Assembly (NCBI RefSeq): GCF_040807025.1
Contig: NC_090954.1
Span: 15,703,501-15,767,500, forward strand
Direction: 5' to 3'
Source of the DNA: Struthio camelus
Lineage: Eukaryota > Chordata > Aves > Struthioniformes > Struthionidae
Length of the DNA: 64,000 nucleotides
The number at the start of each line of letters is the position of its first letter. The first letter of the stretch is position 1. Under the pieces are notes generated by a model. The model made no database searches. It was given only the letters and a program-made list of their open reading frames with translations, and was not told the DNA's origin. Positions 3,146 through 62,866 of the stretch are shown here, one piece after another. Both the position numbers and the translations under genes were made by a program.

Positions 3146-3215
3146 GGGGGGGAAGTGTGTGTGTGTGGGGGGGGGGTTAAGGTCCATTCCCTCCCTCCCC
3201 CCCCCCCCCCCCCCC
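3146..3215. repeat. G7 / (GT)n / G10 / C19 compound tract
   Basis: A G7 run (3146-3152), a short (GT)n, a G10 run (3167-3176), a 20-base spacer and then a C19 run (3197-3215). The G10 and C19 tracts are complementary and could pair as a hairpin. Each could also take part in quadruplex or i-motif structures. Tract length should be treated as uncertain. Confidence 0.9.
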
Positions 3216-44630: not shown

Positions 44631-46675
44631 GGGAATGAAAAACTATCGTGGCTGTTAGTACTCTGAACTTTCAGTGTACATGGAAGAGAACTGTGTGGCA
44701 CGGGAGCGAAACCTGAGTAAAAGAGGAAGAAAATTAGTGAGAAAAAAATGAAAGAACTAAAAAACTCAGAACTGTGCCAGATTTGACTCCTCCCTATCTT
44801 TTTTAAAGGGTGTAAACACCAATACCTTCAGGTATTACTGCTGAGGCTGGAAGGTGCTGTCAAAAACTTCTGGAAAACTCTTTTGGGGCCTAGGGAGGAA
44901 GGGATAGCTCTGGTCTGCAAAACAGAAACCATACTTAGCTAACGATGGCATCATTTCAGGAAGAAGAGTGAAGAAAAGGTGTAACAAAGGCTGAAAGCAA
45001 TAGCTTTCGGGGGATTGAAGGGAAATGGGTTATCTAGACCAGATCGAACATTGAGCCAGTTTCTTACATCACATTTAACTCACCATACTGGACAAGAACA
45101 AACATGCTGTACACATGCTAATCACATATCCCACTGCACCTGGCAGACTGTGCAGAACTGTCAGGAAGGCCTGCACTGTGGAGGGGAGCACAAAATACTG
45201 GCTGGTATAGGTGTTGGCCATTTGCAATTTGTCATCCCTGAAAGAGCAACTCATCCTCCCTTTTCAAAGGGGGGCACTAAGTGCTTTGGAAAGAAGGTCT
45301 TCCTCTTAGAAGTATTTTTAACAATAGACAAGCATCTAGTCAACACTCTTCACTGAAGAACTGCAGTCTTCTAAAGATAGTTTTCATCTGGGCTGTACTG
45401 AAGGTCTAGGACTCCCTGAGAGAACTCCCCAGAAACATAAAAGAGTATCTGGAGTTGAACTCTTTCAAGCCCTTCTGAGATTCAGAAAACTTCTTCCTCC
45501 CATCTGCAAGATGTTTCTATCTTTAATATCTATATACTTAATATTAAAAAAAGGTTTAGGGTTACATATCACCTCATTTATCAGTCACATATCAATATAC
45601 ATATTCTTTGAGAAGTCAGAAGATCAGATATAGCTAAGAGATTTGTTTTCCTAAAAGCTCCTTGCATTACAGGAAATGTCAGTTCATTCCTCCAGAGAAT
45701 TGTATGCCTTTCACACAACTCACAGTAGTCATCATAAAGTAGCTTGAAAGTTTTAGACTGAAGCCAGAATAACCTCCCAATAGTTTTATAAAAGCAAGTA
45801 CTTAAGCACCTCTGACCCATTTGAAAGATGTAACATCCATTATATATCTGCAAAACGCTTCCTTTATCCTTTCCTCAGCTTTTATAAAAGATTGGTAGTC
45901 GCTTTCAAGAAAATAAGAGAGAAGGGACATTTATCCAAAAAAAAAAAAAAAAGACAACTCTTGGACCTTGAGGGTTTGAGCATGCCCTAAATAGAACTAA
46001 ATAGAAACTCTCTATATTACACAACTCCATTTACTTGTCCTAAAATAAGTTCAGAAGTGGAATATTTTCTGCACCCAGAATATTTTTAAACACTGTATCA
46101 AGTGCTTTTCAGTAATACCTTACTTTTTGCAGATCTTTTAGCATTACTACACATCTCCAGCTGGGGGGGGGGGAGGGGAAGAGGCTGTACAAGAGCCTGA
46201 CCTGATACCTACAACAAACTAGAATTATATAGAATTATAACTTCTTTAGACTTGACTAAACCTAACTCTGAGAAAGTAATTCCCAGCAGCTTTCTGAGCA
46301 GAGAGAATATTATTTATTTCACTCAACCAAACAAAAATAAATAATCAAACTGAATGCAAGTATATTTTGAAAAGGACCACCTGAATTTGAAACAAAGCTT
46401 GCCAAGCACTTTACAGGAAAAGAATAAAGCATTCCCCTCAGAGTAGACAGCATAGCTTTTCAAGGACTTTGCCACTACATCTGACCACACAGTCAACATT
46501 AGTGGGGAATAACATTTAACGGAAGAATATCTAAACAGGAAAGTCACCTCAGAACTTTGAAATTATTCATAGCGCTAAGCTAGAACTTACACCTAACAAT
46601 TCCCTTAGTATCACACCCTTTAATACCTTGACAAGGAATTCCCAAGAAAACCCATACACCCAATAAGGAAGCACA

Positions 46676-46792: not shown

Positions 46793-47635
46793 ACAGGTTT
46801 CTACAAACAAAACTTGATATTGTTTGATGACAGTATTATCAACCAAATATGGGTTTTGGGGTAATTTTACATTAGGAGGCATACCATAGCAGTACACTCC
46901 GAACAGCAGTTACGGGTACCAACGCAGTGTTGATTGTCAGAGGGAGGGTTTTACTCGCAACAAAAAGAGAACATAGTCAGAGTCCCACTAAATAACTTCA
47001 GTTATACCAAGCACTCCATCCAGGCTAATTGCAAACTATAAATACGTACATGCTGTACAGATAAGAAATAGCTAAATTTACTATCCAGACCAGGCTACTT
47101 GAACAGTTAGATCATTGGGCTCATTAGTTGAAAAGAATCTCTGTGCTTCAGTTAGAAGAAGGACAACTCCCCATAAGTAGTAATTATGCATAAAAGCAGT
47201 TTAGTAGAGTCTTATATATCCTTCAAGAGTAAAAAGCTTGAGATACAAATCCAGAACTTTCAGAAATAAAAGCAAATCTCATTTGAGAGCTGTATGTAAC
47301 CAAGAATGATTTGCTGCCATATCAGAATTTATTTACGTATTCTCTTTTAAAATCCTACTTAGAGGGAAATTTCATATATTTATGATAACTATTCAAAAGT
47401 ATAAAACACACTTATGACAATGTTAAGTCTCAAGAAGCCATAAGAAAAGAAAAATATGAAAAACAGTACCTCACAAAAGAAGACCTGGGGAGCAGAAACA
47501 GGAAGAAGAAATAATAACTATCAGTTGCTAGACATAAAATAGCCACTGTATAAATTAGCCACTAACATACTTAAAATAGGCTCTGTAAAATGTAGTCAGG
47601 CCTCCAAAAGACACAGGGGGGTGGGGGGGGGAGGG

Positions 47636-47673
47636 AGGTTTCTATAAGGAAAATACTCATATCCTAAAAATGA
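47636..47673 (+). repeat. 38-bp direct repeat, left copy
   Basis: Identical over 38 of 38 bases to 47865-47902. It brackets the 192-bp duplicated block on its left. The pair looks like a duplicated insertion site. Confidence 0.95.
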
Positions 47674-47864
47674 ACAATGTTGAAGCTAGACTAACCGGAA
47701 AACCTGACAGAAAGCTGTGGCAAACACTTAAAAACTCATTGCACAACGACCCAGGTGATCCACTGGCAAATTTTCAGCTTTCCAACAAGCGATAACGTTG
47801 ACAGATTACCCTCACACCTGTCCGAGTGGGCACTTCCTGATTTAGGGATGAGGCAATGCGGACA
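47673..47864 (+). repeat. distal copy of 192-bp CCNG1-upstream block
   Basis: It aligns without gaps to 50010-50201 (offset 2337) with five differences in 192 bases, all transitions, which is about 97.4% identity. The orientation is the same. It carries the same candidate sites as the proximal copy: ETS cores (CCGGAA; CACTTCCTG) and a perfect C/EBP-type palindromic site ATTGCACAAC at 47738-47747. The perfect 38-bp repeats on both sides mark this as the recipient site, with the proximal copy the probable source. Confidence 0.95.
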
Positions 47865-47902
47865 AGGTTTCTATAAGGAAAATACTCATATCCTAAAAAT
47901 GA
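47865..47902 (+). repeat. 38-bp direct repeat, right copy
   Basis: Partner of 47636-47673. It begins exactly where homology to the 192-bp proximal block stops. Confidence 0.95.
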
Positions 47903-50009
47903 GAGAATCTGTTCATGCATAAAAGCAGATATCTTAGTATTAACTACTTTATTCATTACTGTAATATAAATACTTATGTTTGTTTAACTATTGCTATAGA
48001 TTTTTGTATTTGTTAATGTGTTTTTAAGTGCAGAATAAATCCTACAATAACTAGGCACAACTTTTCTCTTGGCTGCAATTTAGAAAACAACTCCTCCCTG
48101 AAAAATACACCAGCAGTAACAGACCTGGATATGGCTAACGGTTAAACACACATTTCAACACCTGAGCAGAAAAGTACAGGTGGCATCAGAATCAATGTCT
48201 CTATTCACCACACGCTGTAATAGTTAATTTATTATCAAATTAACTAACTAGTAAAATTCTGCAATCGTGTGAAGAACTCTTTGTTCTTTTTTCACATTTC
48301 ACTTTTTCTAGCTTCTTGCAAAACTCTTTTAAGGTTCCGATGAAAAATGACTTTTGCCTTCAGCTTCATTTCACAGATAAAAGAAATTATGCTTATTTAG
48401 AAAAAGTTGAGAAGTACTTTTGGGAATGGCAACCATGCTGAAATAACTTCCATTCAAACCTACAATGTCATAACTTCCCATCCACTTTGAAAATAGGATT
48501 CTTACCTTTGAAGGTGAGACTGCAAAACAGCTGGAATAAACATAGTTTGGAAATAGATTGCTTGGCAGAATATCTTGGATTGAAATAATAAGAAAAAGCT
48601 CTTAGCTTTTTTTTTGTATTTACCTTTTTTTCCAACACTGTACACTTCCCTATTTTTCTTTCTTTCCTTCCTTCCCTCCATCTCTTCTTCCTTGCCCTTC
48701 TATTTCTTTTCCACTTTCATATCTGCTTCTTTTTCTTATCTTTTTTCCTTTGATTTTTCTCGATATCCCAGGATGCTCTGTTAAGAAAGACGCCAAATTG
48801 GTGGAATGATGGATCTTACTCCATATTCCCTTTATGCTACGGCAGAAATAACAAAATGCAAAAGAGTAGCTTCTGTATATCAGGGGTTTATAGAGAGGAA
48901 GTAAAAATACTATATGGATCAAAGCAGGAATCTTTTTAAAGCACAAACTTTCACGCTGGAGGGAGGACTAGCCACTTTGGGGAGTGCAGGGAAAGGAAAA
49001 GTGAAAAGGAAAAGAAAAGGAGATTCCACCTAGCCCTGCTTCCTCAAGCCTCTTCTTTCCTGTTTCCCTTCAAAAATTCCCCTCACGTGACACATAAAGA
49101 AGGCAGCAGTGGGAACAGAAGGGTAAAAGCCAAAAGTTTGCAGTGGGGTGGTCAGCGTGCACGCGTTGGTGGTCGGCTCTCTGGAAAGGACTTGCCTCTC
49201 GTCGTATGGAGACGACCGCACTGAGCTGAGCAGGGCAGAGGTACAGCAGCAGCATGTCCGTGCTCGGGTACAAGATGCTATGACCAGCAGCCTGACTGAA
49301 GTACTTTCTCGTCAACCTGACCCTCTGACTCACATCCAGAAAGGGATGTATAAGGGACAGGGCTTAGGATAGGAATTAATACAAATTATCCCATTTCAGG
49401 GCAGGTTGCAGAAGAAAATGTTTGACAACAATTCGGGAAAAAAAACACTGAAAGAAAATGCTGTCTTTGCTGCTTGAAGCAAGCCAATGCAAACAACATT
49501 TGAGTGGATTTTTTTTTTTTTTTGGACAGCATGAACAAGAGACTTGCAAACCACATAAATCTTCTCTTTCTGGTCAGCCCAAATAAGGAGCACACTCTTC
49601 TCGCTCCTCCGATCTCTTCATATTACAATGACTTTTTCCTCTTTCACACAGGTGGCAGCACTCAACACTGATGAGACAAAAACAGGTGCAAAAACAGATG
49701 TTTCAATCCGATTCCCTGAGCTACCAACCACCCAACTCAGGCTATCTTAAGCAACAGGTAAGCCAGATTACCAAATTGCAGTATGCATGTTTTATTTATA
49801 TTAGCCACGTTGAGCTTGTTGTCATTAACCTAGCATGAACGTAGGAGCGCTTCTGAAGGACTGGAAAACGTTACGTAACAAACGAACCAAACAAACTGCT
49901 TATTTTTCTGTCTAAAACTCTTTCATCTTTAGCTTCCACAGCCAAAGGCAGTTGCGCAGCTAAATCCCTTTGCAATTCCCAGCCTATGAGAAAAAGGCAC
50001 TTCACAGGC
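47903..50009. other. CCNG1 far-upstream sequence
   Basis: No coding exon was found. It contains a pyrimidine-rich stretch (48640-48770), T15 at 49509-49523, an E-box palindrome TCACGTGA at 49083-49090, and one perfect p53-type half-site GGACTTGCCT at 49188-49197 with no good partner beside it. The 49.1-49.35 kb part has slightly raised G+C and CpG and could be regulatory. Confidence 0.45.
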
Positions 50010-50201
50010 AACAACGTTGAAGCTAGACTAACCGGAAAACCTGACAGAAAGCTGTGGCAAACACTTAAAAACTCATTGCACAACGACCCAGGTGATCCAC
50101 TGGCAAATTTTCAGCTTTCCAACAAGCGATAATGTTGACAGATTACCCTCACACCCGTCCAAGCGGGCACTTCCTGATTTAGGGATGAGGCAATGCGGAC
50201 A
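50010..50201 (+). promoter_or_regulatory. proximal 192-bp block upstream of the CCNG1 island
   Basis: This is the probable source of the distal copy at 47673-47864. It lies immediately upstream of the CCNG1 CpG island. Visible candidate sites are CCGGAA and CACTTCCTG (ETS cores) and ATTGCACAAC at 50075-50084 (C/EBP type). No direct repeats flank this copy, which argues against two separate insertions of a mobile element. A 14-bp perfect palindrome starts four bases after its end. Confidence 0.6.
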
Positions 50202-50204
50202 CAG

Positions 50205-50218
50205 ACATGAATTCATGT
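50205..50218. repeat. 14-bp perfect palindrome
   Basis: ACATGAATTCATGT is its own reverse complement. It sits between the duplicated block and the CpG island. Each arm holds a CATG core but does not complete a p53 half-site. Confidence 0.9.
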
Positions 50219-51061: not shown

Positions 51062-51325
51062 ATGATTGAAACGCTTGTAACTACCGAAGCTCAGGAACTG
51101 CTGTACCAGCTCACAGCTCTGCTGGAGCAGGAGCTGCGATGCCAGCCGAAGGCCTCTGGCCTGAGACTGATTGAATCTGCTCATGACAATGGCCTCCGAA
51201 TGACTGCAAGGCTGAGGGACTTTGAAGTGAAAGATCTCCTCAGCTTAACTCAGTTCTTTGGCTTCCATACGGAGACATTTTCTCTAGCTGTGAATTTCTT
51301 AGACAGATTTTTGTCAAAAATGAAG
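51062..51325 (+). CDS. CCNG1: CCNG1 exon 2 (first coding), residues 1-88
   Basis: Acceptor TCGTTACAG|ATG and donor AATGAAG|GTATGG. It encodes the N-terminal region and the first helices of the cyclin box, ending LDRFLSKMK in phase 0. Confidence 0.97.
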
Positions 51326-53924
51326 GTATGGCTTTTTAAAGGATAAGTTCTCAGTCGTCAGCTCGTTACGACCTTGTTCCTATTATAAGTTACAATATCT
51401 TGGTTTTAGACAGCTAAAGGTTAAGCTTCTTCCACTCGCTGTGATTGCACAAGAGCCAAAAAACGGCCTTGTCTTTTGGGATTTTAGCAGTGTTAGGACA
51501 ACTGTCCCCTCTGGAGGGGAGGAGGAAGAGGTCATCTATTTCAACGTGGAGACAGCTGTCGGCTTGGAAATGCAAGCAGTATTAATGAGTTAAATCAAGA
51601 CAGACTGTCTGGCCCATTACATGCATACAAGAACAGTTTTCAGTTGCTTCTTGTTTTACTGCTTGTTAAATCTATCTGTGAGGCTCATATAGATCAAGGG
51701 GCTGGATGTTATTTAGCACTTACTAATCTGGCAAAATCTGCAATACAAAGGAGTGCTCAGTATACCCTCATCTGTGGCATGCAGACCAGGGATTGTTGTT
51801 AATCTTCTAACTAGCCGTGGTTATTATACTATGATCAAGAACAAATACTTGTTTTCCTCTTTGTTTTCAGTATATTTTAGTACCTTCCTAAACCAAAAAG
51901 AGAAAGCTAGATGGAGTGAATGAGCAAATGGTGATTTTGAAAGACTGAATACAAAATAAGCTATAGAAAAAGGAATCTAATGGCTATGGAATAAAATAAG
52001 GGACTATTTTTGAAAATATTTTTGGCATAAGCCAATATGTACAACTCTTGAGATCCTAAAGGCTTCTGATCAAGGTGTTCTGGAGCCTAATAAACTACTA
52101 CTTCCTCCCTTAAAAAAACTGTTCTGCCAACCTGCTCTTTAAATGAATGAGGCAGAACTTGCAGTGCATAAAGGCCTCTTCATGTAGTGAAACAAAGGTA
52201 ACAACATCAGTGAATAAAAAAGACTCAGTTTTTCAGCATTTAAAAAAAAAAACATAGTTTTTTCTTAATGTGGACTGTTACCTACATGGCTTAATTTGCC
52301 ACATGTTGAACTGACAGATTAAAATCCTTCATCTTTGACAGTAACAGTATAAACTGATTTTTTTTTTATTTTTTTTTTTTAGGTACAGCCTAAACACTTG
52401 GGCTGTGTTGGACTCAGCTGTTTCTACTTGGCTGTGAAGGCAACGGAAGAAGAGAGAAACATTCCCTTAGCCACTGACTTAATTCGAATAAGCCAGTACA
52501 GATTCACTGTTTCTGATATGATGAGAATGGAGAAAATCATACTAGAGAAGCTCTCCTGGAAAGTCAAAGCCGTAACAGCCTTCCAGTTTCTACAACTCTA
52601 CCATTCACTCATTCATGAGAATTTAAGCTGCGAAAGGTAAAATATCTAAAACTGATTTTGCTATGACTGCAGATGATGAAGAAACCCGCCTAGAAAACAA
52701 AGTGGGGAAAATGACTCAAGTAATTGGCCCTTCTGTAAATAAATAGTCAAAATGAAGGAAAATTCTGCCCCGATGGTAAACATCACAAATGTGATTCTAT
52801 CTGTGGTTTAATATTATTTTAACTTAATGTGTTGTTTGCTTAAAGTTACCCAAGAGTACTGCGCTCTGAGCATAAAACCAGACTTGCTCAATAGTGGTGG
52901 TAGAATAAATCTCTCCTTAACGCTGTAGTAAGTAGTGCCTCATTGCACAGATTGCAAAATCTTCTGGCTTGGAAACAGGTTCCTTTTGCTAGCAAGCATT
53001 TGAAGTCCTTGTTAGCCAGCCTGTTTTGACGGTGCCACTTTCCTATGTAATACAACACTTGTTTTTGGCCTTAGGACTGCCAAAACCAAACACCTGTTTG
53101 GTTGAAACCCTAGAACTACTGGGACAAATGAGGCCCTTATTTAAGTAAAGAACATCCTGGCTACTTCTCTGAGTTCCCAGGGTGGAGCTGTCTTGATCAA
53201 GCTTGCTTTCTTGTGCTGCATTCACTCATCTGCTTTTATTATAGGAGAAAGTATCTTAATTTTGAGAGACTTGAGACCCAGCTTAAGGCATGTCACTGCA
53301 GGATCATGTTTTCTAAAGCCAAGGTAAATACGTGTCTTGGAAGCACAAAGATAATGAGACTACTGAAACTTAACAAATCGGTGTTCAAATATCATCACTT
53401 TTTCTGTCTCTCCAGCCTTCTGTCCTGGCACTGTCTATTATGGCACTAGAGATAGAAGAACAAAAACTACTGGAGTTGACAGAGGCATTGGAATTTCTGC
53501 AGATGCATTCCAAGGTGCGTATGGATTAAGTTTTAGTGGGGGAAGGAAGAAAAATACATGAAAGCACGTACTCACTGGGGAAGGGGTTGGTATATTGACA
53601 GAAAGGTTTCTTCTGTTTTTTCTTCAATTTGGCTTAGGATCTTTCCTGTTTTAGGTGAAGTACCTAAAAACGCTCATGTGAAATAAGCGTTTAATGAATT
53701 AATGATGTGTGGGATTCTGTTTTGCCGTTTAGATAAACAGCAGAGACTTGACCTTCTGGAAGGAACTGGTGTTGAAGTGCCTTACAGAATATTCCTCGAG
53801 CAAGTGTTCCAAACCAAACGTCCAGAAATTGAAATGGATTGTGTCTGGACGTACAGCACGGCAGCTTAAACATAGCTATTACAGAATAACACACCTTCCT
53901 ACAATTCCAGAGACCAGCTCATAA
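51062..53924 (+). CDS. CCNG1: cyclin G1, five coding exons, 295 aa
   Basis: Coding exons are 51062-51325, 52383-52636, 53245-53323, 53416-53514 and 53733-53924, giving 888 nt including the stop and a 295-residue product, the same length as human cyclin G1. All introns are GT-AG, with phases 0, 2, 0, 0. Diagnostic stretches are LRLIESAHDNGLRMTARLRD, the cyclin-box helix around SLTQFFGF..ETFSLAVN (residues 61-78), GCVGLSCFYLAVK, and the C-terminal WIVSGRTARQLKHSYYRITH. Cyclin G1 is an atypical cyclin induced by p53. It recruits PP2A B' subunits, acts on MDM2 in negative feedback on p53, and also binds GAK and CDK5. The start at 51062 directly follows the acceptor TTACAG and matches the family N terminus (MIE.L). 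The product ends PTIPETSS, slightly different from human. The gene is intact, with no frameshift. Confidence 0.98.
52383..52636 (+). CDS. CCNG1: CCNG1 exon 3, residues 89-173 (last codon split)
   Basis: The acceptor follows an almost pure T tract (TTTTTTTTTTTTAG|GTACAGCC). It starts VQPKHLGCVGL and ends ...NLSCE plus two bases of Arg (CGAAAG|GTAAAA). It carries the second half of the cyclin box. Confidence 0.97.
53245..53323 (+). CDS. CCNG1: CCNG1 exon 4
   Basis: Acceptor TTTATTATAG|GAGAAAG and donor GCCAAG|GTAAAT. The split codon completes Arg, followed by RKYLNFERLETQLKACHC and on to FSKAK. Confidence 0.97.
53416..53514 (+). CDS. CCNG1: CCNG1 exon 5
   Basis: Acceptor TCTCTCCAG|CCTTCTG and donor TCCAAG|GTGCGT. 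Thirty-three codons running PSVLALSIMALEIEEQK to MHSK. The intron before it (53324-53415) is only 92 bp. Confidence 0.97.
53733..53924 (+). CDS. CCNG1: CCNG1 exon 6, C terminus and stop
   Basis: The acceptor is GCCGTTTAG|ATAAAC. It encodes INSRDLTFWKELV to PETSS and ends with TAA at 53922-53924, followed at once by an in-frame TAG. The run TAATAG|GTAACT after the stop resembles a splice donor, so a 3' UTR intron is possible but unproven. Confidence 0.97.
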   Translation: MNSRDLTFWKELVLKCLTEYSSSKCSKPNVQKLKWIVSGRTARQLKHSYYRITHLPTIPETSS

Positions 53925-58974: not shown

Positions 58975-61900
58975 CTGATGGACGTAAAAGAAAAATTTAG
59001 TATACAGATTATACTTAATACAAGCGTATAAACCAACGTTTCTGTTAACTTTCTGTGATTCTAACAAGGACATATAACTATCAGCTTGCTACACAATTCA
59101 AAGCTGTCACCGCACTGAAATTCCGCTTGGAGAATGCATCAACAAATAAACCTTGAATTGTCACAGTTGCGTTGCCCACTGCCCAAGTGACTTTATAATG
59201 CCATCCTCAGTTTGTCAGATCTCCCAGTAAAGAAATATTAACAAATGTTGGAGTAAGCTTTCTGACTTTTGGTGTCCCTTTAAATTACTATCTGAAAGCA
59301 TAAGTACCTGCTGTGCTGGATAGCGATTAAAATAAAAACAGTGCTCTTTTTAGCTAAGAGTAATGTGCTGATTCAGCTGTTAACTAATTAGCTGTACTTC
59401 CACAAGTCTGCAAAAACAAACAGAGACAGCTGACTGCTAAAGGTGTATGAAAATGGTTAAAATCAATTTTAGTAAAAGGGCAAGGAAAATATTTGCCAGC
59501 TCTCCATCATCTGATATTATATGTAAATATAGTCATGAGAGCTTGATGTTAGCTGTATTTAAAACAAACTTCTAAACTATAATCTTAGAGAATAAGAGAA
59601 ATCGTACGTACCCTAACTTAAATGAAAAGTTGTTGAAAAGAATTATGCATCAAACACTAAAACATTTTTTTCCTTTTCCCCAAAACTAACCTTAACTTCT
59701 CACCAAACATTCAGACAGAACAGCAAGTTCTTAAAAGTACTCTGATAAAGCCTAATGAAAATTCTATACATTAAAGTATGAAAGTATTAATTAATACTTT
59801 AATTAATTAGTATTGCATTAAAGTATTTGTTTCCAGGATCTTGCTACTGGACAGCAAAATAATTTTGCTCAGCTTTCACAGTCCTGACCCATGTGTGCAA
59901 ATGCAAAATACAAGCAGTAATCAGTCCTCTGACTTGCCTCTCTTTGGAATCGCTCCAGCGTGAGTTTCCTTTGCATCTGGTCCTGTACCCAAGGATCAGC
60001 AGCGTATTCATTTTCTAACAGCGACGTCCAACAATTTCCAGCATCGCGGTTTGTCTTTGTTAGAACAATTCGTATCAATTTCCTGTCCTCTATTGATTGA
60101 AGAGAGCCACAGAAAACAACCATTAGACGCTGTCCCGTGTGCTACTTTTTTTTGTTGTTTTGCTGAGTTCACCATTAACATGTTGAAGCATGGAATTTTT
60201 TGCTGAAGTGATTTAAATTCTTAACACTGATGCCAACAGGGCTATTAGTAAATAATAACAACAACAAGAAATGGAAAAGCTCAAGCAGAGACAACCTTAT
60301 GCAGCCATTCCCGCGCTTCTGGCCTTTAAAATGTTGAAGCTGTTCTGGGAGGTTAAAACGCAGTTCATAAGAACTTCTGTTTCAAACATAAACTAACTTC
60401 TTCGAGGGGTTCACATGTGAGAAGAGATTTAACCTATTAATACATACAGCTCTGCTAAGGCAATAATTACAGATTTGAAGTCAGGCTGACAGCTTTACAG
60501 AATGTTATTACCAGTAAAAGTCAGAAGTAAGTTTAAGTGACTTATGGAGGTATAATCATCTTTTTTTTTTTAAAATGTAGACAGTACTCTTATGAACAAT
60601 GGCTATACTGAAAGAACATCTCGGAGTTATCACGTAGAATGTTTTAGCGCTAACTGAATAAATGCAGCATGATATGGTGCATTTTGAAGGTTATTCACGT
60701 ACTGGGAAAGAGTGGGCTTCACACTTCTAATATTCATGATTAAGACAACAAATCGTTCATCAATGTTGATACTAGCCAGAAAACAAAACCATCCTAGGAA
60801 AACATTAAGTGAGAAGCACAGTTTACATAATTTTTTTTATTAAAACTGAACACTTCACAATATTTGTGATGCAATGATCAGAGAAGTTTTTTTCTCTTTA
60901 TCTGTAGTTAGGTACCTTAGCCTGATTTTTATACCACTTGTTGATTCTTTAGGATTGTAGGTTTTGTCACCTATCCCAAAACATAAGGCTTGAGAGGAAG
61001 AGGAGAGAATACAGAAAAGTAACAATGACAGAGAGACCTGAATCACATAACTGCACCTGTTTAATTTTTAGGAGAGTTTATTAAAAACTTCTCACCATTC
61101 GCTTGCTAAAAACTTAATGTTTATTCTAAGGAAAGTTTGTAATCCCTTGAATACTGTCTTCCCAGATCTGGCATTTCTCCATTAATCTTAATCGCTAAAT
61201 TTTTTGCGCTACCTATGCTTAAAATCACATATCACATAAAAAAGATAGAAAATTAATATCTAATCCTGATTATCTCATCAACTGAATTTACATCTCCTTA
61301 GTCTGGCAGTAATTACGGCCTATTTTACACTACATATGGAGAATCAGAACCTGACCAAAATCAGAAAATAAATAATCTTTCCTGTAAAAAAAAAAAAAAA
61401 AAAACCACCTCTACTTTCCTGTATCATATTTGGAAAACAACTGCTGCCTTTCAAAATGTCACTTTGGAAACAGATCATTACCTAATGTCCACGTTCCTTC
61501 ATCAGCTATTGTGGAGTCAAAAAGTTTACCCTGCAAAAGACATTTACAATATTACATAACAGGAAAACCTGTTTAGTATCCAGTTTCTGTGAAATTGCAA
61601 AGTGTTACTCCCAGCTTGCATTCTTCCACTCTACTGAAAAGGGCAATCTGGCCCCACAAATCTACACTTGCACCTAGACTAGCAAATAATTATTTTGTTA
61701 CACAACAAAAATATTAGAAAATAAGTGTTTAATGCAATAAAAATACCTGTCACTGTTTCAGTATCTCCATTCAATGAAAGGGGCTGTGTTCTCAGGGGGG
61801 AATGCCATTTTTAATTGCCTTGCCATCAGAATTCCAGTGTCTGCTAAGGGCCATGCCCACCTATGGCGCAATGTAAATACATTATGATACAAAGAATTTA

Positions 61901-62709
61901 TTGCTCACTTCCAATGAGAAAGCAGATTTATATTTAATCCTCATCATCTCCTCAGCTGAATCTACAGCTTCTCAGTCTGGCAATAACGATGGCTCATTTT
62001 ACAGAGCTACACACGGAGAATCAGAACTGGACCAAAACCAGAAAAAAAGAAATCTTTCCGGAAAAAAAAAAAAACCTCTGTAGCACATTTTGAGAAATTA
62101 TACTACCTTTCAAGCTATCACTTCAGAAATAGCGTATTACCTAATGTCTGCTTTCAGAAAGAGACTGGTATAAATATCAGAGGACTTCAACAATATTACA
62201 AAAGGTCAGAACGCAGCTGCTTTCAGACGTCCTGACTCCCATGTTCTCTTTCATTTGCAAAGATGATTCTGGCTCTTTTAGCGGTGAACGGCAACGCACC
62301 ACGCAGCGGAACTTATTTTTCTTGAAAATATACTCCAGCAACAGAAAGTCTTTTTTGACTCACTGCAGTTTATTCACCCCACTTAAAACATTAAGTTATA
62401 CTACGTTACAAACGTGGAATCAGGAGCGTTTCTGAAGTGAAAACGAGTGTCCGCGTAACGGCCGCCGCCGCGGGGGCTGAGGGCGCAACGGCCGCCTGCC
62501 CCTCCCCCCCCCCGCGGTACCTGCAGCACCTCCTCGCCCCCCACGGCGAGCGCGACGTGGCGGCTCCGCAGGCTGCAGCGCACGTCGCGGGCCCGGGTGC
62601 CCGGCGGCACGCGCACCTCGATGAACACCTCCTCCAGCGTCTGGTACCAGCGGCCCCAGGGGGTGGCGCAGGGCACCACCCCGCTCCGCTCCTCGAACGG
62701 CGCCGACAT
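58891..62709 (-). CDS. NUDCD2: NudC domain-containing protein 2, four coding exons, 157 aa
   Basis: Coding exons on the minus strand are 62709-62521, 61530-61482, 60089-59938 and 58974-58891, totalling 474 nt with the stop, or 157 residues, the human length. The N terminus MSAPFEERSGVVPC and the run WYQTLEEVFIEVRVPPGTR mark the family. A CS (p23/NudC-like) domain covers roughly residues 14-104, and EYAADPWVQDQMQRKLTLE and GFDFSGAEISGNY form the C-terminal part. NUDCD2 is a cytosolic HSP90-associated co-chaperone that supports LIS1 stability in the dynein pathway. Intron phases are 0, 1, 0. Introns 1 and 2 are GT-AG; intron 3 is GC-AG. The start codon has G at -3. An in-frame ATG 47 codons upstream (62850) lies in the shared promoter and was not used because the family starts at MSAPFEE. 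Confidence 0.97.
59781..59800. repeat. 20-bp perfect palindrome
   Basis: AAAGTATTAATTAATACTTT equals its own reverse complement. It sits in NUDCD2 intron 3, about 140 bp beyond the GC donor, and is followed by more TTAATTA sequence. Confidence 0.9.
59938..60089 (-). CDS. NUDCD2: NUDCD2 exon 3
   Basis: Acceptor CAATCAATAG|AGGACAGG. It completes Glu and encodes DRKLIRIVLTKTNRD to LERFQRE. The donor is AGAGAG|GCAAGT, a GC donor in otherwise ideal context. No GT donor nearby keeps phase 0 with exon 4. Confidence 0.96.
61243..61566. repeat. diverged tandem duplication, copy A (contains NUDCD2 exon 2)
   Basis: It shares an ordered series of matches with 61915-62209: TTAATCCT/CTAATCCT, GTCTGGCA, GGAGAATCAGAAC, ACCAAAA, AATCTTTCC, an A-run, CCTTTCAA, ATTACCTAATGTC and CAATATTACA. 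By eye the identity is roughly three quarters, with several small indels. An A19 tract lies at 61386-61404. Confidence 0.8.
61482..61530 (-). CDS. NUDCD2: NUDCD2 exon 2 (49 nt)
   Basis: Acceptor TCTTTTGCAG|GGTAAAC and donor GACATTAG|GTAATG. It encodes GKLFDSTIADEGTWTL plus one base of Glu. It is too short to show as a long open frame. It lies inside a tandemly duplicated segment. Confidence 0.96.
61915..62209. repeat. diverged tandem duplication, copy B (vestigial exon 2)
   Basis: Partner of 61243-61566. The donor-side end of exon 2 is preserved (GACATTAG|GTAATA on the minus strand, boundary at 62141/62140). The body of the exon copy is degraded and shortened, and the acceptor AG and reading frame are not recognisable. 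The shared match runs into exon sequence, so this is a duplicated exon neighbourhood rather than only an intronic repeat. Confidence 0.75.
62141..62180 (-). pseudogene. decayed second copy of NUDCD2 exon 2
   Basis: It lies between exon 1 and the real exon 2. Only the last eight exon bases plus the GT donor match closely; upstream the match is patchy and about 14 bases shorter. The family motif FDSTIADEG is absent, so inclusion would not give a normal CS domain. Confidence 0.55.
62521..62709 (-). CDS. NUDCD2: NUDCD2 exon 1
   Basis: Sixty-three codons from MSAPFEE to GGEEVLQ, ending at donor GTGCTGCAG|GTACCG, phase 0. Very CpG-rich, as expected inside the shared island. Confidence 0.97.
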
Positions 62710-62866
62710 GACGACGCAGACGCCGCCACCCTCACGCGGCCCACCCGGAAGCCAGGGCAGGGCCCCTCCCCGCGCGCATGCGTACAAGCAAAGCCGTCCC
62801 CTTTCCCCCCCGCGGCAGCAAGGCTGCGGAGGGTGCTGCGCGTGCGTCATGTGGGGGGAGGCGGTG

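Follow-up and report, generated by a model that had tools for sequence, protein, structure and literature searches.

Short local duplications and their origins

Slips of DNA repair or of replication are known makers of small local duplications in genomes. Pace, Sen, Batzer and Feschotte (2009) described 824 human duplications in which donor and acceptor lie within 5 kb of each other, with a mean length of 162 bp and a maximum of 619 bp, and 753 of 1,136 human candidate events in the same survey had donor and acceptor less than 3 kb apart (PMC2671141). None of the 39 proximal cases inspected in that survey carried poly(A) and six had target duplications of some kind, these being 4–21 nt in length, and microhomology of at least 2 nt or filler was present in all 39 (PMC2671141). 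Transcription-factor sites were predicted in 22 of the 824 donors and, for 21 of these 22, in the acceptor as well. The survey's method saw only events inside transposons, and by this method chicken yielded only 6 events, the lowest density among the 10 species covered (PMC2671141).

The short paired duplications, or doublets, of Thomas et al. (as cited in PMC2671141) are near-identical pairs under 100 bp, some of which are suspected to result from imperfect break repair. Templated sequence insertion polymorphisms copy distant donors that are kept, and are described as falling into a class 1 with poly(A) and a class 2 without target duplications (PMC5110952). Mouse ES cells tandemly duplicate 3' overhangs of about 50 nt nearly whole, the reported activities being fill-in by CST-Pol alpha and Ku-dependent joining (PMC8355091, PMC5730883). 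Deletions at G-quadruplex (G4) motifs in dog-1-deficient C. elegans have 84% and 80% of their 3' junctions within 3 bp of the motif at the two sites reported (PMC4654259), and templated insertions are found in about 28% of the dog-1 G4 scars (PMC8654963).

Here we describe a locus in Struthio camelus that combines features of these systems. The analysis covered a stretch of 64 kb (contig NC_090954.1, positions 15,703,501–15,767,500; hereafter the window, within which all coordinates are numbered), which has a GC content of 0.396 and contains few repeats. Judged by title or by the opening of the abstract, none of the publications among the matches listed deals with this locus.

A promoter-side block bracketed by a 38-bp direct repeat

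Two segments of the plus strand, 47673–47864 (the distal copy) and 50010–50201 (the proximal copy), align without gaps and are identical at 187 of 192 bases, the five differences (47678/50015, 47796/50133, 47819/50156, 47824/50161 and 47827/50164) all being transitions. The distal copy is bracketed by two direct repeats on the same strand, 47636–47673 and 47865–47902, which match each other at 38 of 38 positions, and no flanking repeat is reported around the proximal copy. This arrangement, namely an ungapped match with five transitions, identical 38-bp repeats set at the edges of the distal copy alone, and a proximal copy that is unflanked, had been proposed in a preliminary description of the DNA and was confirmed on each point, with a 1-bp overlap in that base 47673 is common to the left 38-mer and the block. 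Because this base is shared, the net gain consists of 191 copied bases plus the 38-bp duplication, or 229 bp. The block and the 38-mer stand out within the window. Exact direct repeats of at least 18 bp lying no more than 3 kb apart are, besides these, mainly homopolymer or microsatellite runs, and with a 16-base seed the block is the sole direct-repeat family of at least 40 bp apart from one poly(A) family. Since no other exact non-simple repeats of this kind are present in the window, a chance origin of the block and 38-mer repeats is excluded.

A sharp-edged block sitting between direct repeats could be a short mobile element, with the 38-mers as its target duplication. Against this, the proximal copy is unflanked, and neither the block nor the 38-mer has a third copy in the 64-kb window when shared 14-mers are sought on both strands. 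The ends of the block also do not form inverted repeats, the best match between them within 5-nt offsets being 5–6 of 12, and a 38-bp repeat exceeds the target duplications of ordinary transposons. A mobile element is therefore a very improbable reading, and a DNA transposon in particular was rejected on the unflanked proximal copy, the lack of terminal inverted repeats and the presence of just two copies in the window. A viral origin was likewise set aside, one 32-base piece of the block having 0 exact matches in viral_contigs, although this is a weak test.

The proximal copy, which we read as the donor, lies on the margin of a CpG-rich region; the 200 bp to its right have a GC content of 0.75 and a CpG observed/expected ratio of 1.00. 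Its end is 0.86 kb upstream of the ATG (51062) that opens the first coding exon of a downstream gene (51062–51325, plus strand), and this exon matches the Pfam family Cyclin_N with an E value of 3.6e-6. The Cyclin_N domain goes on at 52383–52637 (E 3.9e-10), a further frame at 53687–53866 matched no Pfam family, and in the PDB the first exon finds its best relatives in two cyclin-A2 chains (E 0.00099). The name CCNG1, given to the gene in the preliminary description, fits this predicted cyclin-domain gene. CCNG1 is a p53 target. A minus-strand frame at 62431–62850 encodes a CS domain (Pfam, E 3.3e-7), and would fit NUDCD2, a neighbor of CCNG1 in vertebrates.

Four transcription-factor consensus sequences are matched once in each copy of the block: ACCGGAAR (2 matches in the window), MAGGAAGTG (4), ATTGCRCAAY (3) and TGANGCAAT (5). 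We take the matches in the distal copy to be ETS-like at 47694–47701, C/EBP-like at 47738–47747, ETS-like at 47831–47839 and ATF-like at 47849–47857, with the same sites in 50010–50201. The five differences between the copies leave all four matches intact on both sides, and the ETS- and C/EBP-type sites that had been attributed to the block thus stand, as consensus matches. When half sites were sought by exact consensus (20 places), no two neighbors anywhere in the window had the spacing of a full p53 site. The predicted ETS-, C/EBP- and ATF-like sites of the extra copy may or may not act, and the duplication event itself is probably without function.

Direction, class and age of the duplication

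Because only the distal copy is bracketed by the 38-bp repeats, we read it as the acceptor and hence as the derived copy. Base composition agrees with a proximal-to-distal direction, which we infer from the sequence: the GC content of the block is 0.46–0.47, that around the distal site is 0.34 and 0.32, and that to the left of the proximal copy is 0.42. Were the distal copy the original and the proximal copy derived from it, that the 38-mers fit the edges of the block exactly would be a coincidence, and the departure of the block from its distal surroundings in composition would also go against expectation; we give this reversed direction very little credence.

The size and position of the two copies correspond to those of a proximal repair-mediated duplication, for which an acceptor of at least 50 bp and a donor less than 5 kb but more than 50 bp away are expected; here the insert is 191 bp and the copies lie 2,337 bp apart from start to start. 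As expected for that class, the insert carries no poly(A) or poly(T) tail, no run of A or T longer than 5 being present in 47600–47930, and the AAAAA found at 47666 and again at 47895 belongs to the 38-bp repeat. Because size, spacing and absence of poly(A) all agree, the locus works like such a duplication and most likely is one, and we consider it very probable that the distal block arose by an event of the class described in PMC2671141. The low chicken count in that survey weighs against the assignment.

Events of this class carry repair marks at their breakpoints, in the form of microhomology, filler or deletion, and the first two are absent here; the target duplication, a further mark reported for 6 of the 39 proximal cases, is present. 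The homology at the junctions is 1 bp on the left and 0 bp on the right, and there is no filler. In 50,000 random placements the mean summed homology was 1.44 bp, and 60% of placements had 1 bp or less, so that the junction homology is at chance level and supports no particular route. Template switching driven by microhomology was rejected on these numbers. We also considered hairpins as a cause of the breakpoints and rejected them, since the four folds calculated (the 38-mer on both strands, the donor's right edge and the donor's left edge) did not exceed their shuffles in stability (z of 0.05, 0.50, 0.69 and 0.31).

Compared with the events described by Pace et al., the locus is alike in being a short local copy, such copies lying mostly within 3 kb, in lacking poly(A) and in leaving its donor intact; target duplications accompany some of their events, and transcription-factor sites are sometimes carried along (PMC2671141). 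It differs in the length of the target duplication, 38 bp here as against 4–21 nt, and in its junctions, which lack both filler and microhomology of at least 2 nt; all 39 of their inspected cases are reported to have at least one of these. Their events were moreover found through an interrupted transposon, and the present one was not. The doublets share with this locus their shortness, their local character and, for some, a suspected origin in imperfect break repair, but as described they are pairs under 100 bp (PMC2671141). The templated sequence insertion polymorphisms are alike in donor retention and in insert size (median 191 bp for induced events), but their reported donors are distant, and their two classes carry either poly(A) or no target duplication (PMC5110952). 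LINE-mediated retroposition, as in a class 1 insertion, was rejected for the present locus on the absence of a poly(A) tail.

Promoter edges are often transcribed divergently, and the patch might accordingly derive from RNA, a transcript from upstream of the promoter having been reverse transcribed and used as filler at a break. When breaks are induced in human cells, the templated insertions that result have a median length of 191 bp and are thought to be RNA-derived (PMC5110952). However, a poly(A) tail is absent, nothing in the sequence supports transcription of the block, a donor as near as 2.3 kb is what DNA templating would lead one to expect, and the class 2 insertions are described as lacking target duplications (PMC5110952). 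We regard an RNA-derived patch as improbable.

The differences between the two copies provide information on the age of the event. All five fall at CpG dinucleotides, with TG in the distal and CG in the proximal copy at three, and CG in the distal and TG or CA in the proximal copy at two. Nine CpG sites are present in one copy or the other, and 5 of 18 CpG positions have changed compared to 0 of 174 other positions (Fisher P 4e-6). This confinement of the differences to CpG suggests that the pair is young and has aged by CpG decay, CpG being the likely ancestral state at all five sites. If neutral sites are assumed to change at 2e-9 per site per year, a pair with no non-CpG changes should be no older than about 4.3 million years. 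The CpG count leads to an age of about 8.1 million years when CpG is taken to mutate 10 times as fast, and of about 4.1 million years at 20 times. With rates from 1.5e-9 to 3e-9, the non-CpG limit ranges over 2.8–5.7 million years and the CpG age over 2.7–10.8 million years. The probability that five of five differences fall at CpG is 3% for a tenfold and 14% for a twentyfold CpG rate; for the two estimates to coincide, the CpG excess would have to lie well above tenfold, unless the draw was a lucky one. On these assumed rates, we infer that the duplication most likely dates to the last few million years.

The same pattern speaks against an error of sequencing or assembly. Long G-runs can trouble sequencing, and one adjoins the site, which is the circumstance in favor of an artefact. 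However, the differences are confined to CpG and are distributed 3 to 2 over the two copies, as evolution would give, and a false haplotype duplication would have brought its flanks along. We consider an artefact the least probable of all the readings. The preliminary description had noted the five transitions, but neither their position at CpG nor the G-quadruplex motif that adjoins the repeat.

A G-run at the repeat edge and the route of insertion

A run with G-quadruplex potential (consensus G3+N1-7) occupies 47616–47635 on the plus strand, beside the distal site, where it is still present. Its 3' end at 47635 is flush against the left edge of the 38-bp repeat at 47636, and so the junction lies within the 3 bp of the motif's 3' side that characterize a G-quadruplex stall scar. 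A polymerase with the G-rich strand as its template would come to a stop on this flush side. The motif occurs at 10 places in the window, both strands counted, and positions no more than 3 bp from a motif end account for 0.22% of the window, or 0.9% for four edges; the contact caught our attention post hoc and is no more than suggestive. Runs of G or C with the G4 pattern also occur at 2199–2213, 3189–3215 and 46163–46178, and no direct repeats bracketing an insert are reported beside them.

A perfect 14-bp palindrome (50205–50218) begins three bases past the right edge of the donor. It is one of 6 perfect palindromes of at least 14 bp in the window, and taken alone it folds no better than its shuffles. 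With the palindrome near the donor edge, both edges that are joined at the right junction adjoin a potential non-B DNA feature. No perfect palindrome in the window is longer than the AT-rich one of 20 bp at 59781–59800.

Within the class of repair-mediated duplication, two routes need to be weighed. In the first, two nicks would have left 38-nt overhangs; these would have been filled in and a free DNA patch of 191 bp ligated in between through end joining, with the G-run either incidental or the mark of a nick. The tandem duplication of nearly whole overhangs of about 50 nt in mouse ES cells provides a precedent for a fill-in that duplicates the overhang (PMC8355091, PMC5730883), and the near-blunt junctions suit end joining. 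Still, the flush edge at the G-run would be left unexplained, and the products described in those experiments are simple tandem duplications; a 191-bp patch is not among them, and only here does an insert of that length part the two repeats. We view a staggered break as a real possibility, held with less confidence than a switch of templates.

The second route is a switch of templates at the G-run, which we favor tentatively and to which we give somewhat less than an even chance; it is preferred over the staggered break narrowly, because of the flush G-run. In outline, an end would have formed in an ancestor's germline at 47636, against the 3' side of the G-run; repair would have left the 38 bp of 47636–47673 on both sides, and 191 bp would have been copied in the same orientation from a template 2.3 kb away (50011–50201) and joined in between. 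On the favored route, a polymerase copying the G-rich strand leftwards would have halted immediately before the G-run, gone back to the template on the promoter side and copied 191 nt there, and then come back 38 nt behind its stop, re-copied that stretch and passed through the G-run. CpGs would afterwards have been lost from both copies by deamination. The direction in which the polymerase moved, the lesion and the enzymes are reconstructed from the arrangement of the repeats and the G-run and could differ from this outline.

The preliminary description had proposed a templated insertion by replication template switching. The templated insertion stands as the best reading of the locus, and switching becomes one of two routes to it; the junctions of 1 and 0 bp do not favor its microhomology-driven form, whereas the flush G-run favors a stalled polymerase.

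The dog-1 scars of C. elegans resemble the present site in the flush junction on the 3' side of the motif and in the templated insertions that some of them contain, but those described are deletions, whereas the present locus shows no visible loss and has gained 229 bp (PMC4654259, PMC8654963). One might propose that a G-quadruplex stall in the vertebrate germline gives a gain in place of a deletion, with the polymerase stopping, switching to promoter DNA beside the palindrome and re-copying 38 nt, so that the edge of the repeat marks the stall. We consider this proposal rather unlikely as it stands.

The locus provides a young and cleanly readable case of repair moving a copy of promoter-side DNA, and its CpG-only differences illustrate how such copies age. 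The base-exact contact with the G-run suggests a link between replication stalls and templated insertion in the vertebrate germline that can be tested. If the stall reading is true and general, replication stalls would have left readable fossils in the form of long flanking repeats that start at G-runs, and promoter edges might be favored donors, moving regulatory sites about the genome.
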